Below, one piece after another: positions 331-5,309 of a stretch of DNA of 64,000 nucleotides. Origin of the DNA: Prevotella sp. (GTDB lineage Bacteria > Bacteroidota > Bacteroidia > Bacteroidales > Bacteroidaceae). Position numbers and translations under genes: made by a program. The stretch spans positions 1-64,000 of the forward strand of contig JAFZSI010000072.1 of the NCBI GenBank assembly GCA_017619445.1. The letters run 5' to 3'. The notes below the pieces were generated by a model that ran no database searches, had not been told where the DNA came from, and saw only the letters and a program-made list of their open reading frames with translations. The number at the start of each line of letters is the position of its first letter. Within the stretch, counting starts at the first letter, position 1.

Positions 331-759
331 TTAAGCAGAAGCATCGGCTCTGAAAGGTCGCTAGGGTGTATGCACGCCTTGAAGTCGCACAAGTATCTCT
401 ACGACCTTGTGGTAGTTGACTCAAAAGGCATTGAGATGGACTTCGCTAATCAGTTGGAATCGCGTAATGAGGTTGCTGTCTATACGAAACTTCCCAATGG
501 CTTCTATATCAATACGCCTGTCGGTCACTATAATCATTACAGGACCGTGGTATTCCATGAGGGCAGCGACATCAAGTACATCTACTTGGTGGCTGAAACG
601 AAAGGCTACGACAAGGATAGTCTAAAAGACTACCGTCGAGCCGAAAGCGTGAAGATAGAATGCGCAAGTCGGCACTTCGCCACAATCTCAGATAGTCACG
701 TCACATACGATGTCGTAAAGAACTACGATGAGTTGTGGAATATAATCACAAAGCCATAA
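331..759 (+). pseudogene. type III restriction subunit (Res), C-terminal remnant
   Basis: The reading frame matches the C-terminal endonuclease region of type III restriction Res proteins: the pattern YLYDLVVVDS, then VYTKLPNGFYINTPVGHYN, then a YLVAETKG strand and a K-I-E-C-A helix. An intact Res protein is roughly 900-1000 residues; here only about 140 remain and stop codons at 319 and 328 close the frame upstream. The usual N-P-D-W after the GxYN strand reads N-H-Y-R, so the aspartate of the PD-(D/E)xK site is missing while the later ExK-like ETK survives. No methyltransferase (Mod) partner is present. I call it a non-functional remnant. Confidence 0.75.
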
Positions 760-786
760 GAATACAACTCAGTTCTGTAATATTAT

Positions 787-827
787 TTCGGGCGGAAACT
801 GCGATATTTTGCAAGTTTCCGCCCGAA
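787..827. terminator. 14-bp perfect hairpin, terminator-like
   Basis: Arms 787-800 and 814-827 are perfectly complementary (TTCGGGCGGAAACT and its reverse complement) around a 13-nt loop, followed by an AT-rich run. It stands between the Res remnant and the ATPase promoter, so it would end transcription from the left. The 760-1035 gap holds nothing else I can support. Confidence 0.7.
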
Positions 828-1035
828 TTATTATATATGGTTTTACCTGTTATAAAACTTCAATTATTATTCCATTGGTCTTGTGGAGTCGCAAATTTTA
901 TCGAATCCAACTTTCTTTTTCTCCAGTTATGCACATTTCGGTAAAATATAACATTTAACTGAACATAAAATCACATGCTAATATTGGATTTCGTTAATAA
1001 ATCAGCGGAATCTTTATTTTTTCTTATCTTTCCGC

Positions 1036-1065
1036 TTGTTTTCCCACGAAAAAGTATTATCTTTG
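1036..1065 (+). promoter_or_regulatory. Bacteroidetes promoter for the ATPase/RloC-like pair
   Basis: TTG at 1036-1038 and TATCTTTG at 1058-1065 are separated by 19 bp and fit the TTG/TAnnTTTG consensus. The TTG could be misread as a start codon of the ATPase gene; its role as -33 element argues for the ATG at 1093 instead. Confidence 0.7.
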
Positions 1066-1092
1066 TGGCGTAATTCAAAATTAAAGAATGTC

Positions 1093-2514
1093 ATGCTGAT
1101 TGGTCGAGAAAAAGAAAAACAAGTATTACAGAATGCTCTCAACGAAGAGTACTCTCAGTTTGTTGCAGTGTATGGAAGACGTCGTGTTGGCAAGACTTTT
1201 CTAATCAGAGAAACCTTTGAAAACCGATTCGACTTCCAATTTACCGGAGCTGCAAATTTGACTGCAAGAAAGCAGTTGGTACGTTTCCGTCGTGCCCTCA
1301 AAGAACAAGGGCAGAAAGATACTCCAGAACTAACCAACTGGGGCGATGCTTTCAGCGAACTCAAACGATTCATCACGAATCTGCCTGAGGGCAAAAAAGT
1401 TGTTTTCCTTGACGAATTGCCGTGGATGGATGCTCCACGCTCCGGATTTCTCTCAGAACTGGAATCGTTTTGGAATGGATGGGCTTCAGCACGAAAAGAT
1501 ATTGTCTTTGTGGTATGCGGAAGCAGTACCTCGTGGATGGTCAAGAGAATCATCAAGAATAAGGGCGGTCTGCACAATCGATTGAACCATCGTATATCAC
1601 TTAATCCTTTCCCTCTGGGGTTATGCGAGAAGTTAGCTCAGTCAAGAGGTCTTGTGTTGAACCGCAAACAGATGCTGGAGGCCTATATGATATTTGGCGG
1701 TGTCCCATATTATTGGAGCTTGTTGCAAAAAGGAATGAGCATTACATCCGAGATTGACAGACTGATTTTTTCGCCTGACGGAGAGCTGCATGACGAATTT
1801 GAGATGCTATATGCTTCTTTGTTCAAAAAGCCCGAGCCATACGTCCGTGTAATTGAGTTGTTGGCCAAGAAAAAGATGGGCATGACACGACAAGAGTTGT
1901 TGGCAGCAGGAAAATTTGAAGACAACGGAGCATTCTCTGACATTCTGAAAGATTTGGAGTGGTGTGGATTCATTAGAAGTTATACCATGATGGGGTATCG
2001 GACAAAATCGGACATCTTCCAGCTGATAGATCATTATACATTATTCTATTACGAATACATAGACGGAGTACGTCAAGGCTCAAACTATTGGAGATCCATG
2101 TTGGGAACACCAAAGTATAATACTTGGTGCGGCTTGGCATTTGAGCGTACTTGCCTATGGCACGTTGACCAGATTAAAAAGAAACTAGGCATCAGCGGAA
2201 TACTGACAAACGAATATGCATGGCGTAGCTTGCCGGATGAGAGTATCGGAAGGCCTGGAGTTCAGATAGACCTGCTTATAGACCGCAGTGATGGGATAAT
2301 TGATGTATGCGAAATGAAATACTCGAAGGAATCATACACCATCACTTCCGATTATGCAGGTGAACTTGCCCGTAAACGAAATGTATTTCAGACTGTAACA
2401 GGCACCAAGAAAGCCATTCACTCCATCATGGTTACCACTGATGGACTGACCCGTAATGAGTATTGGGGTGATGTTCAGGCCGAAATACAATTGGACGATT
2501 TGTACGAACTGTAA
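1093..2514 (+). CDS. AAA-type ATPase with C-terminal DUF234/PD-(D/E)xK-like domain
   Basis: The 473-residue protein begins MLIGREKEKQ, the usual start of this ATPase family, and has a Walker A motif GRRRVGKT at residues 28-35 and a Walker B region VVFLDELPW near residue 115. A winged-helix-like middle follows. The C-terminal part looks like DUF234: Q-I-D (D393) and E407-M-K409 resemble a restriction-type nuclease core. The family is common in Bacteroidetes and archaea and has no settled function; a role in defence or mobile-element biology is inference. It has its own promoter and is followed after 17 bp by the RloC-like gene, so the two are probably co-transcribed. No membrane segment or signal peptide is visible. 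Confidence 0.8.
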   Translation: MLIGREKEKQVLQNALNEEYSQFVAVYGRRRVGKTFLIRETFENRFDFQFTGAANLTARKQLVRFRRALKEQGQKDTPELTNWGDAFSELKRFITNLPEGKKVVFLDELPWMDAPRSGFLSELESFWNGWASARKDIVFVVCGSSTSWMVKRIIKNKGGLHNRLNHRISLNPFPLGLCEKLAQSRGLVLNRKQMLEAYMIFGGVPYYWSLLQKGMSITSEIDRLIFSPDGELHDEFEMLYASLFKKPEPYVRVIELLAKKKMGMTRQELLAAGKFEDNGAFSDILKDLEWCGFIRSYTMMGYRTKSDIFQLIDHYTLFYYEYIDGVRQGSNYWRSMLGTPKYNTWCGLAFERTCLWHVDQIKKKLGISGILTNEYAWRSLPDESIGRPGVQIDLLIDRSDGIIDVCEMKYSKESYTITSDYAGELARKRNVFQTVTGTKKAIHSIMVTTDGLTRNEYWGDVQAEIQLDDLYEL

Positions 2515-2531
2515 AAATTGATTAATTTGCT

Positions 2532-4919
2532 ATGTTCGAGGAATTTAAGAAGATAACAATAAAAGGAGGCTACTTTGAACAACCTACCGAGTTTAGTTTG
2601 TTCACCCCAAACCAAACTTTGAGCATCATATATGGACGAAATGGCAGTGGGAAAACATCTATTGCAAAAGCCATACGACAATTAGTAGGCAAGGATAGTA
2701 AGCAACCTGAGGAAGACGGAAACCTTCCATTTACCATTACTTCTGATGCTGTTATTCCAGAAGACAAAGAAACTTCTGTCTTTATCTTTGACGAGGAATT
2801 TGTCCAAGAGAATGTAAGGACAAAAGGCAAAGGGTTGGAAACCATTGTAATGATGGGTGAACAGGTGGATTTAGATACACAAATCACAACAAAAAAAGCA
2901 GAAGGGGCGGTCGTTGATAATAAGATTGTAGAACAAACAGCCTTGAAAGAAAAATACGAAAATGCAAGTGATACTTCATCTCCACAGTATTTTTTTAACA
3001 AAATCAGAGATGAACTGCGGAAAGATGGAGGTTGGGCAGATACTGACAGAGATGTAAAGGGTAACACTGTGAAAAGCCGTGTTACGGAAGATTTTGTAAA
3101 GAATTTGGCAGATAAAGAAGAACCGATAGAAACAGAAGATGTATTGCGACAACGGCTTAATGATGATTTTAGCCTATATACTCAAACCAATGAAGCCCAA
3201 GAAATTGTATGGGAATCAACGCCTTTAGAAATGCCTGCGGATTTGAGTACTGTAAATGCACTGCTAGAGAAAAAAGTCGAGAAACCTGAATTGAGTGACC
3301 GAGAACGAAGACTTCTGACTTTTCTCCAGGAACATTCAGGTCACTATTCTATAGATGCTACAAGGCAATTGACAGAAGAAAAGTGGCCTTTCTGTCCTTT
3401 ATGTCTTAGGGAGGCTGGAGAACAGGATTATGTGAACATTGGTGACACATTGAAGCAATTACTAAACAAAGAGTCTGAATTATATAATAAAGATTTAGAT
3501 ACAGCTATAGAGTTGTTCCCAGACATGGCAACAACTTTGCCTGCATTTCCTAATAATTTGAATTCAAAGGAAATTAAAGATGTTCAACTTGCAATCGAGC
3601 AGTTGAATAAAGACGTAACTACAATAAAGAATAGAATCAAAGTCAGGAAAAGGGACATTTATGGAACAATGGAGGCCCCCTTTAATGCAGAAGAGATGGA
3701 TAGTTATGTTACACATGTAGCAAATTATAAGGACACAATAGAAACTCTTAAAATGTGTGTTGCAACTTTTAATCGTTCAGTCAATGAACGAAAGAAACTA
3801 AAGGAAAAAGTGTTGCAAGAGAATGAGTTACTTGCAAGAAAACGTCTAAATACGTTATTGAATGGGTACAATAGTGCAAGCAAAGCCTATGAAGATTGTA
3901 CGAAGGTCCTATTGGAATTGAATGCAAAAAAGAAGAAAATAGAGAGTGATATAAAAGACTTAAAAGCGCAGATTGAGCGAACAGACATTGCATTGAACTA
4001 CATCAATGAGCAATTACAATACGTATTCTATAGCGACAAGAAGGCGAAACTAGTTGCTGGAGATGGATGCTACAAATTGAAAATTCGAGGAAAGGATGTG
4101 CCTCCTAAGAAAATTAGCGTAGGCGAGAGAAATGTTCTTGGCCTGTGTTACTTCTTCGCAAAACTATTCATCAACAAGAAAAAAGAGGATAAATACAAAG
4201 ACGAGATACTAATAGTAATAGATGATCCAATATCCAGTTTCGATGATGGTAATCGACTGGGGGTACTTTCTCTGTTGCGTTATCAATTTAGCAGCATAAA
4301 AAAGGGAAACTCAAATAGTCGAATTTTGGTCATGACCCATGACCTTCGTTCAGCGTTTGACTTGATAAAAGTACGTTCGGAACTAAATGGCGGCAACGGA
4401 AATGATAAAACATACTTGGAACTTGCCGATAAACAATTGACACAGCGCAAGATTTCCAATGAATATAAGAGACTATTGGAGGCTGTATATGAGTATGCAA
4501 AAAAAACAGATGATGTAGATGATCAAGAAGATAGTAGTATCGGAAATATCATGAGACGCGTTGTCGAAGCCTTTTCAAGTTTTTGCTATAATACAAGTTT
4601 TGAAACAATGATGTGTCGTGAAGGTGTACTAAATATCATACCTGAAGAAAAACGAGGATATTATGAAAACTTCATGTGCAGATTGGCCTTAAATGGGGAA
4701 AGCCATATGATGGAAAATGTGTATGCATTAGATACTATTACTCCTTATTTCACCAAACAAGAAAAAATACAAACAGCGAAGAGCTTATTGCTGTTTCTAA
4801 GCTACATAAATAAAGAACATCTATCATGTTATTTGGGCAAAGCTAAAGATGGGGACGAGGACAAAATTGCTGTAATAGAAAGTTGGATGCATGAAGAAGC
4901 AAATTGGATAAACATGTAA
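2532..4919 (+). CDS. RloC/PrrC-like AAA_13 ATPase, candidate anticodon nuclease
   Basis: A 795-residue SMC/Rad50-like ATPase of the AAA_13 group. Visible parts in order: Walker A GRNGSGKT (35-42); the FIFDEEFVQENVR segment typical of RloC and PrrC (about 85-97); long coiled coils; a zinc-hook C288-P-L-C291; a second coiled coil; the ABC signature S529-V-G-E-R; Walker B ending D564-D565 with the D-loop SSFD; and the H-loop MTH603D. The C-terminal domain has R675-R-V-V-E679 and S724-H725, which fits the Arg-x3-Glu...His triad described for PrrC/RloC tRNA anticodon nucleases. The family disables host tRNA-Lys or similar tRNAs on phage infection or DNA damage. The tRNA target cannot be read from the sequence. 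It follows the nuclease-like ATPase by 17 bp and is AT-richer than the housekeeping genes to the right, which suggests transfer. Confidence 0.8.
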   Translation: MFEEFKKITIKGGYFEQPTEFSLFTPNQTLSIIYGRNGSGKTSIAKAIRQLVGKDSKQPEEDGNLPFTITSDAVIPEDKETSVFIFDEEFVQENVRTKGKGLETIVMMGEQVDLDTQITTKKAEGAVVDNKIVEQTALKEKYENASDTSSPQYFFNKIRDELRKDGGWADTDRDVKGNTVKSRVTEDFVKNLADKEEPIETEDVLRQRLNDDFSLYTQTNEAQEIVWESTPLEMPADLSTVNALLEKKVEKPELSDRERRLLTFLQEHSGHYSIDATRQLTEEKWPFCPLCLREAGEQDYVNIGDTLKQLLNKESELYNKDLDTAIELFPDMATTLPAFPNNLNSKEIKDVQLAIEQLNKDVTTIKNRIKVRKRDIYGTMEAPFNAEEMDSYVTHVANYKDTIETLKMCVATFNRSVNERKKLKEKVLQENELLARKRLNTLLNGYNSASKAYEDCTKVLLELNAKKKKIESDIKDLKAQIERTDIALNYINEQLQYVFYSDKKAKLVAGDGCYKLKIRGKDVPPKKISVGERNVLGLCYFFAKLFINKKKEDKYKDEILIVIDDPISSFDDGNRLGVLSLLRYQFSSIKKGNSNSRILVMTHDLRSAFDLIKVRSELNGGNGNDKTYLELADKQLTQRKISNEYKRLLEAVYEYAKKTDDVDDQEDSSIGNIMRRVVEAFSSFCYNTSFETMMCREGVLNIIPEEKRGYYENFMCRLALNGESHMMENVYALDTITPYFTKQEKIQTAKSLLLFLSYINKEHLSCYLGKAKDGDEDKIAVIESWMHEEANWINM

Positions 4920-5309
4920 TATTTATAGCCGTATCTATACCCCTCATTGGTAAATATGCTAGTGTAGCAAATTTGTACCAAATTGAAGTTGTTATCCAAT
5001 GGTTCATTCTCTTGTATCATAGCAAAGGGATAGGCTAGTTGGACGTTACAATTCTTATGGTTGATGTAATTTCCTGTGCGTAATTAAAAGGCATTGTCAT
5101 CGTCTTTGAACTCTAAGGTAAAACTGCGACATTCTGTCGCAGTTTTACCTCACAATACAGAACTGTTCATAGATATTAACAGATCAAAAACTGCACATTT
5201 TTATATTTTTTGTGGTTTCGTAAAGTTAAAAGTGTTAAATCTTCGACTTTTTTATCACTCATAGAATCTATGGTTTCACTTTTCTACCGTTTAAAAGCAA
5301 AAGCACTGA
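4920..5309. other. intergenic, no gene seen
   Basis: No coding region of credible composition was found. The only structure is the strong hairpin at 5116-5150. The stretch separates the RloC-like cassette from a truncated LRR gene. Confidence 0.6.
5116..5150. terminator. 15-bp perfect hairpin downstream of the RloC-like gene
   Basis: Arms 5116-5130 and 5136-5150 are exact reverse complements (AGGTAAAACTGCGAC) with a 5-nt loop. It lies about 200 bp past the RloC-like stop. There is no run of T after it, so it may act as a transcript-end stabiliser or in both directions rather than as a classic terminator. Confidence 0.6.

Follow-up and report, generated by a model that had tools for sequence, protein, structure and literature searches.

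The window, i.e. the whole stretch of 64,000 nucleotides of Prevotella sp. DNA analysed here, forms the start of contig C7 in its own assembly. It carries two genes on the + strand, referred to as A and B, which are separated by only 17 bp (stop codon of A at 2514, ATG of B at 2532). The ORF coordinates thus bear out the two-gene arrangement and spacing of the original prediction, and its description of the cassette as intact holds for the window copy, where both genes are whole. The features of the locus are given below; L and G numbers designate the loci and genomes used for comparison.

370..759, + strand: C-terminal relic of a type III restriction endonuclease (RE_endonuc, Pfam PF19778, 8.2e-28), upstream neighbour
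780..834, no strand: palindrome GGGCGGAAACT...AGTTTCCGCCC between the relic and gene A (self-match with the other strand 82%), present in L009 too
989..1057, + strand: left end of a block common to several gene A copies (similarity to L009, L110, L111, L112 and L113 begins at 989-991); it contains the imperfect palindrome AGCGGAA...TTTCCGCT (palindrome score 7)
1058..1065, + strand: Bacteroidales-type -7 box TATCTTTG, read from the sequence
1093..2514, + strand: gene A, 473-aa ATPase_2 and PD-(D/E)xK-like protein of the PDC-S27 family (PADLOC, Pfam, motifs)
2532..4919, + strand: gene B, 795-aa putative RloC-type ABC ATPase/anticodon-nuclease homologue (Pfam, PADLOC, motifs)
2634..2657, + strand: Walker A of B, GRNGSGKT, residues 35-42 (N37, G40 and K41 in 19/19 aligned proteins)
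3393..3404, + strand: predicted zinc-hook motif of B, CPLC, residues 288-291 (both cysteines 19/19)
4116..4130, + strand: ABC signature of B, SVGER, residues 529-533 (motif reading, alignment)
4338..4340, + strand: H-loop histidine of B, H603 (19/19)
4554..4568, + strand: part of the nuclease triad of B, R675-x3-E679 (19/19)
4701..4706, + strand: part of the nuclease triad of B, S724-H725 (S 19/19, H 16/19)
5116..5150, + strand: terminator-like perfect inverted repeat after B, read from the sequence and common to L009 by alignment

Gene A had been predicted to start with the TTG at position 1036. The sequence TATCTTTG at 1058-1065, which we take to be a promoter box from the Bacteroidales consensus TAnnTTTG, comes after this TTG, and the match to the PDC-S27 profile begins at residue 2 when counted from the ATG at 1093. 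The latter is therefore the likely start of gene A. Gene B probably shares the promoter of gene A, and we infer from the sequence that both genes are co-transcribed. Upstream of gene A, the palindromic region of the window (789-832) matches L009 at 93%, and downstream of gene B an LRR_5 gene was detected with Pfam. The RE_endonuc domain of the relic gave a single match in the assembly of the window, which is 85% complete. The genome might have held a further, complete type III system at another site, in parallel to the hsdR relic of G. kaustophilus; this was considered and discarded, as no further match to the relic domain was obtained in this 85% complete assembly. Relative to L010, the PDWA stretch of the relic is altered (HYRT).

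Analysis of gene A confirmed the proposed fusion of an ATPase with a nuclease-like domain. The protein matches Pfam ATPase_2 (4.3e-16), its C-terminus is PD-(D/E)xK-like, and the PADLOC profile PDLC04984 aligns over its full length (A residues 2-471, profile positions 4-473 of 474, 7.4e-194), which places it in the PDC-S27 family, a phage-defence candidate of PADLOC. Besides the motifs GRRRVGKT and DE107-108, the residues D393, E407 and K409 were found at the predicted positions when numbering runs from ATG 1093; they are present in all 61 aligned rows, corresponding to 60 distinct loci with the window included and to the window again as reference. The DUF234 identity given to gene A was ruled out, since Pfam lists no such match at E<=0.1. 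PDC-S27 was described as the fusion of an ATPase with a PD-(D/E)xK domain, most such candidates still awaiting validation (PMC12988326). No difference between gene A and this family was seen, except for the rloC-type gene behind it in its own lineage. Matches to gene A (E<=0.001) occur in 47 of the genomes of 100 relatives, with up to 17 in a single genome, fragments and distant matches (~25% identity) being counted.

The HMM search proposed for the second protein returned Pfam AAA_13 (1.4e-55) and, among the PADLOC profiles, PDC-S06 (5.5e-39) and PrrC (7.1e-12). All motifs predicted for gene B, namely GRNGSGKT (35-42), CPLC (288-291), SVGER (529-533), H603 and R675/E679/H725, were located at the expected residues. 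The motifs are not due to chance: across an alignment of 19 RloC-type proteins, C288, C291, H603, R675 and E679 are invariant and H725 is present in 16, D564 and D565 being likewise invariant. This alignment comprised the window, L003, L011 and L041, the plasmid-borne L089, L090 and L091, and 12 proteins from the order; the last represent 12 of the 19 AAA_13 rows, after omission of L078 (the window again), L076 (interrupted by stop codons), L079, L085, L086, L087 and L088. The hallmarks reported for RloC are a hook insert with CX2C, ABC motifs, the pattern R-X3-E-X36-52-H often with a serine before the histidine, and a size of 658-897 aa (PMC2610378). With 795 aa, the ABC ATPase motifs (Walker A, signature, Walker B/D-loop, H-loop), a predicted zinc-hook insert with CxxC that divides the ATPase domain and the triad R675-x3-E679-x45-S724-H725, gene B falls within all of these. 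It resembles the RloC proteins of Geobacillus kaustophilus and Acinetobacter baylyi, where a Rad50-like ABC ATPase is split by a CxxC insert, as well as in the C-terminal triad, the serine before the histidine, the size, and the restriction relic upstream as in G. kaustophilus, whose rloC was reported alongside an hsdR relic (PMC2610378). It differs from them in its SVGE signature and in the preceding PDC-S27 gene, and the relic of the window is of type III, not type I. The SVGE form characterizes the clade of gene B, whereas SEGE or SEGD is found in most other aligned RloC-type proteins.

The nuclease homology of the C-terminus was traced by comparing profiles of the region behind the H-loop. 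The clade of the window (n=6) matched the 13 other RloC-type proteins with 97.3% probability (E 2.5e-11), and these 13 in turn matched six PrrC proteins with 74.8% (E 2.6e-5), the triad being aligned in both cases. When compared directly with PrrC, the window clade gave a weak match (11.7%, E 0.0025, 24 columns), with R-x3-E aligned. The PrrC profile was built from six of the eight PrrC loci; L097 and L099, whose frames are incomplete, were omitted. The nuclease domain of RloC and PrrC has been assigned to HEPN (PMC3710099). Sequence searches against the PDB returned weak matches alone, the best of which carry unrelated names; B residues 649-755, for example, gave a weak profile match to orotidine decarboxylase chains (E 0.003) that is probably due to chance. 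Scans of viral contigs with the alignment of B, its plasmid relative L089 and gene A confirmed no relative, the single-protein scans reaching close relatives only.

The original prediction had left the choice between RloC and PrrC open, and only the former stood. Gene B shares with PrrC the ABC ATPase and the C-terminal R-x3-E...SH triad, but it is about twice as long and carries the CxxC insert. For PrrC, an invariable linkage to type Ic restriction-modification genes and a size of 341-416 aa without hook insert were reported (PMC2610378). In the window, where the contig starts, the neighbours of B are the type III relic, gene A and the LRR gene, and no type I genes were seen alongside. In contrast, the PrrC loci inspected in Bacteroidales are surrounded by frames resembling hsdS, hsdM or hsdR, as named by reading their sequences. 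On size, hook and neighbourhood, gene B was thus excluded as a PrrC. Taken together, family, motifs and profiles support the assignment of gene B as a putative RloC-type ABC-ATPase/HEPN anticodon-nuclease homologue. RloC is already known as a defence enzyme, and a clean member in Bacteroidales is useful and unsurprising.

Genes of type B are rare. At E<=0.001 they were detected in 7 of 149 relatives, and at 1e-10 in 5 of 398 genomes of the genus, in both cases with a strong match only in the window's own genome and G010. Across the order, 26 of 393 genomes gave a match, which was strong in the own genome and in G476 alone. Compared with L009, gene B has changed mostly at synonymous sites: dN/dS is 0.12 for B residues 1-662 and 0.075 for its C-terminal piece, next to 0.046 for gene A. 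The comparison with L010 yielded 3 non-synonymous and 0 synonymous differences in gene B, too few for judging selection.

The question whether A and B belong together was addressed through their flanks. With the RloC profile, B was found beside 2 of 60 distinct full-length A loci, the window and L010, in flanks of up to 1.5 kb. The sequence available behind the match amounted to at least 300 bp in 57 of these loci and to at least 1200 bp in 36, the flanks of L120-L139 being about 500 bp; many A matches of the survey of 100 relatives lie outside this set. Conversely, gene A was not found in the available flanks, mostly up to 1.5 kb, of 27 other AAA_13 loci. These are what remains of 29 loci after removal of L078 (the window) and L103 (L003 again); one gene is split over L087 and L088, and several loci end at contig edges. 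The two positive loci are nearly identical, so the neighbourhood of A and B, for which a survey of other genomes had been proposed, was not repeated outside one lineage, and no co-occurrence was found in diverged genomes. No B was present within 1.5 kb of the close A copies L012, L107, L108, L109 and L110 (93-96% identical protein). Linkage of the two genes is not obligate, each being found without the other.

The nearest loci found, L009 and L010, are located on Bacteroidales MAG contigs from deer; the contig of L010 is 98.6% identical to the window over 4.9 kb, and the L009 block is 85.8% identical to it at the DNA level. Including L013, four A-B junctions were available, and both genes are whole in the window only. 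In L009 the pair is doubly damaged, with a one-base gap around codon 13 of A and an in-frame TAG before the nuclease domain of B. A 26-base gap deletes the start codon of A in L010, where B is whole, and L013 has a whole A with B cut down to 18 codons. Errors in the MAG assemblies could explain some of these lesions. The L009 cassette is closely followed, on the opposite strand, by another PDC-S27-like gene, which is fragmented (L009 6296-7247). A B relative with 51% identity was found in a Muribaculaceae MAG (L011, 4123-8361), 52 bp behind AbiLi/AbiLii-like genes. When ten window proteins were compared with PADLOC, AbiLii was absent among the matches listed, and the AbiLi match of B reached only 1.4e-5. 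B relatives thus stand behind different genes, and the pairing of A with B looks like a one-lineage event. Gene A itself appears to be a common neighbour that spreads on its own, and not a partner dedicated to B.

We consider it likely that gene B encodes a self-switched, tRNA-cutting abortive-infection enzyme of the RloC family, and that gene A is a separate, dispersed gene whose linkage to B is confined to one lineage and is loosening. The protein would combine a Rad50-like ABC ATPase, carrying a zinc-hook insert, with an RNase of the HEPN type at its C-terminus, and would most likely be kept silent by its own ATPase/hook switch. Activation of GkaRloC requires linear DNA and ATP hydrolysis. 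RloC reportedly responds to DNA breaks also when cells are deficient in restriction, and it was proposed that, owing to its internal switch, it can do without an external silencer (PMC3874168). By analogy with these characterised enzymes, broken or phage-damaged DNA would switch gene B on and the activated protein would cut tRNA anticodon loops; by homology, gene B would thus disable translation upon DNA damage, and the infection would abort. Genes A and B probably travelled together in one Bacteroidales lineage and are now coming apart.

The original prediction had instead seen in A and B an abortive-infection unit of two genes, with A as the silencer or activator of B. The common strand, the short gap and the presence of the pair or its trace at four loci (window, L010, L009 and L013) would fit with such a unit, and a whole A with a remnant of B, as in L013, is what would be expected if a silencer alone is harmless. 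However, the flank counts (2/60 and 0/27) speak against gene A as dedicated silencer or activator, as does the whole B in L010 despite the lost start codon of A; the B relative in L011 (51% identity) lies behind AbiL genes, and characterised RloC was proposed to be self-switched (PMC3874168). We therefore regard the two-gene unit as quite unlikely. As main reading, gene A as an antitoxin was rejected on the co-occurrence counts. It also appears unlikely that the HEPN domain of an RloC-fold gene B cuts RNA other than the tRNA anticodon loop. HEPN RNases have varied targets (PMC3710099), and the weak direct similarity of the C-terminal domain of the window clade to PrrC would leave room for another substrate; on the other side, the full triad of B and its spacing match the tRNA-cutting members. 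Finally, a two-stage relay was considered, in which the nuclease of A cuts invading DNA and the resulting breaks switch on B. The strict retention of D393, E407 and K409 in gene A and the need of GkaRloC for linear DNA (PMC3874168) are consistent with such a relay, but DNA cutting by A is hypothetical and the A-B linkage is not conserved; we regard the relay as highly improbable.

A side result on PDC-S27, worth following, may be more interesting than the question of A and B. Close copies of gene A recur in different genomes as sharply delimited blocks. Nine copies of gene A from other genomes (L012, L013 and L107-L113; 79-96% protein identity) were compared with the window as DNA. The similarity starts at window positions 918-998 in eight of them, while L108 starts at its own contig edge, and it ends at 2484-2520, around the stop codon of A at 2514, again in eight, the ninth being L013 with its remnant of B. 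L111 and L112, from two genomes, have 1552 bp in common at 95%; nothing else matched between the 7.4 and 6.5 kb that were compared, and visual inspection of the ends of this block revealed no target-site duplication. An empty-site comparison of G079 with G080 for one A insertion showed one conserved flank, the other flank being without match.

Upstream of A, a palindrome with a score of at least 12 was found in 29 of 53 copies, versus none of 36 control genes (Fisher p 4e-9) and 1 of 265 random sequences generated with the dinucleotide transitions of the respective upstream region. When near-duplicates were removed, 27 of 46 copies had such a palindrome. The 53-copy set excludes duplicates, the distinct copy L014, L108 (upstream too short), L009 (A frameshifted) and partial copies; the control genes are mechanically called ORFs of at least 150 aa from the window and six loci. 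The copy in the window, with its score of 7, is no better than the control genes. The palindrome sequences differ from one A copy to another. Downstream of A the signal is weak, with 16 of 53 copies scoring at least 12 and a median of 8 versus 7 for the control upstreams, and part of it could stem from ordinary terminators; a word of at least 10 bases from the same arm recurs downstream in 8 of the 53 copies. The literature on PDC-S27 covered here, to which the original description of the PADLOC candidates does not belong, describes no palindrome, inverted repeat or hairpin for this family.

Palindromes and block pattern are suggestive of a bounded mobile cassette or of a self-control operator. 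A tentative reading, which we hold to be possible rather than probable, is that PDC-S27 is a palindrome-bounded mobile single-gene cassette of Bacteroidales, whose ATPase/PD-(D/E)xK protein recognises the palindrome of its own copy for movement or self-control, RloC in the window being a passenger caught between gene A and a right border that is now lost. Equally tentatively, the palindrome of such a cassette would typically be located just upstream of the promoter, and on both sides in some clades. If PDC-S27 copies were indeed palindrome-bounded and mobile, their co-localisation with defence genes would partly reflect movement, and the palindrome would offer a direct handle for biochemistry. 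In L109 (2956-3049), the palindrome-promoter segment of gene A is repeated right behind the gene. One palindrome was searched in 18 genomes and gave 12 occurrences in 7 of them, all located 32-46 bp from a matched A stretch, as five bracketing pairs and two single sites; in G034, with 17 A matches, it was found at one copy only.
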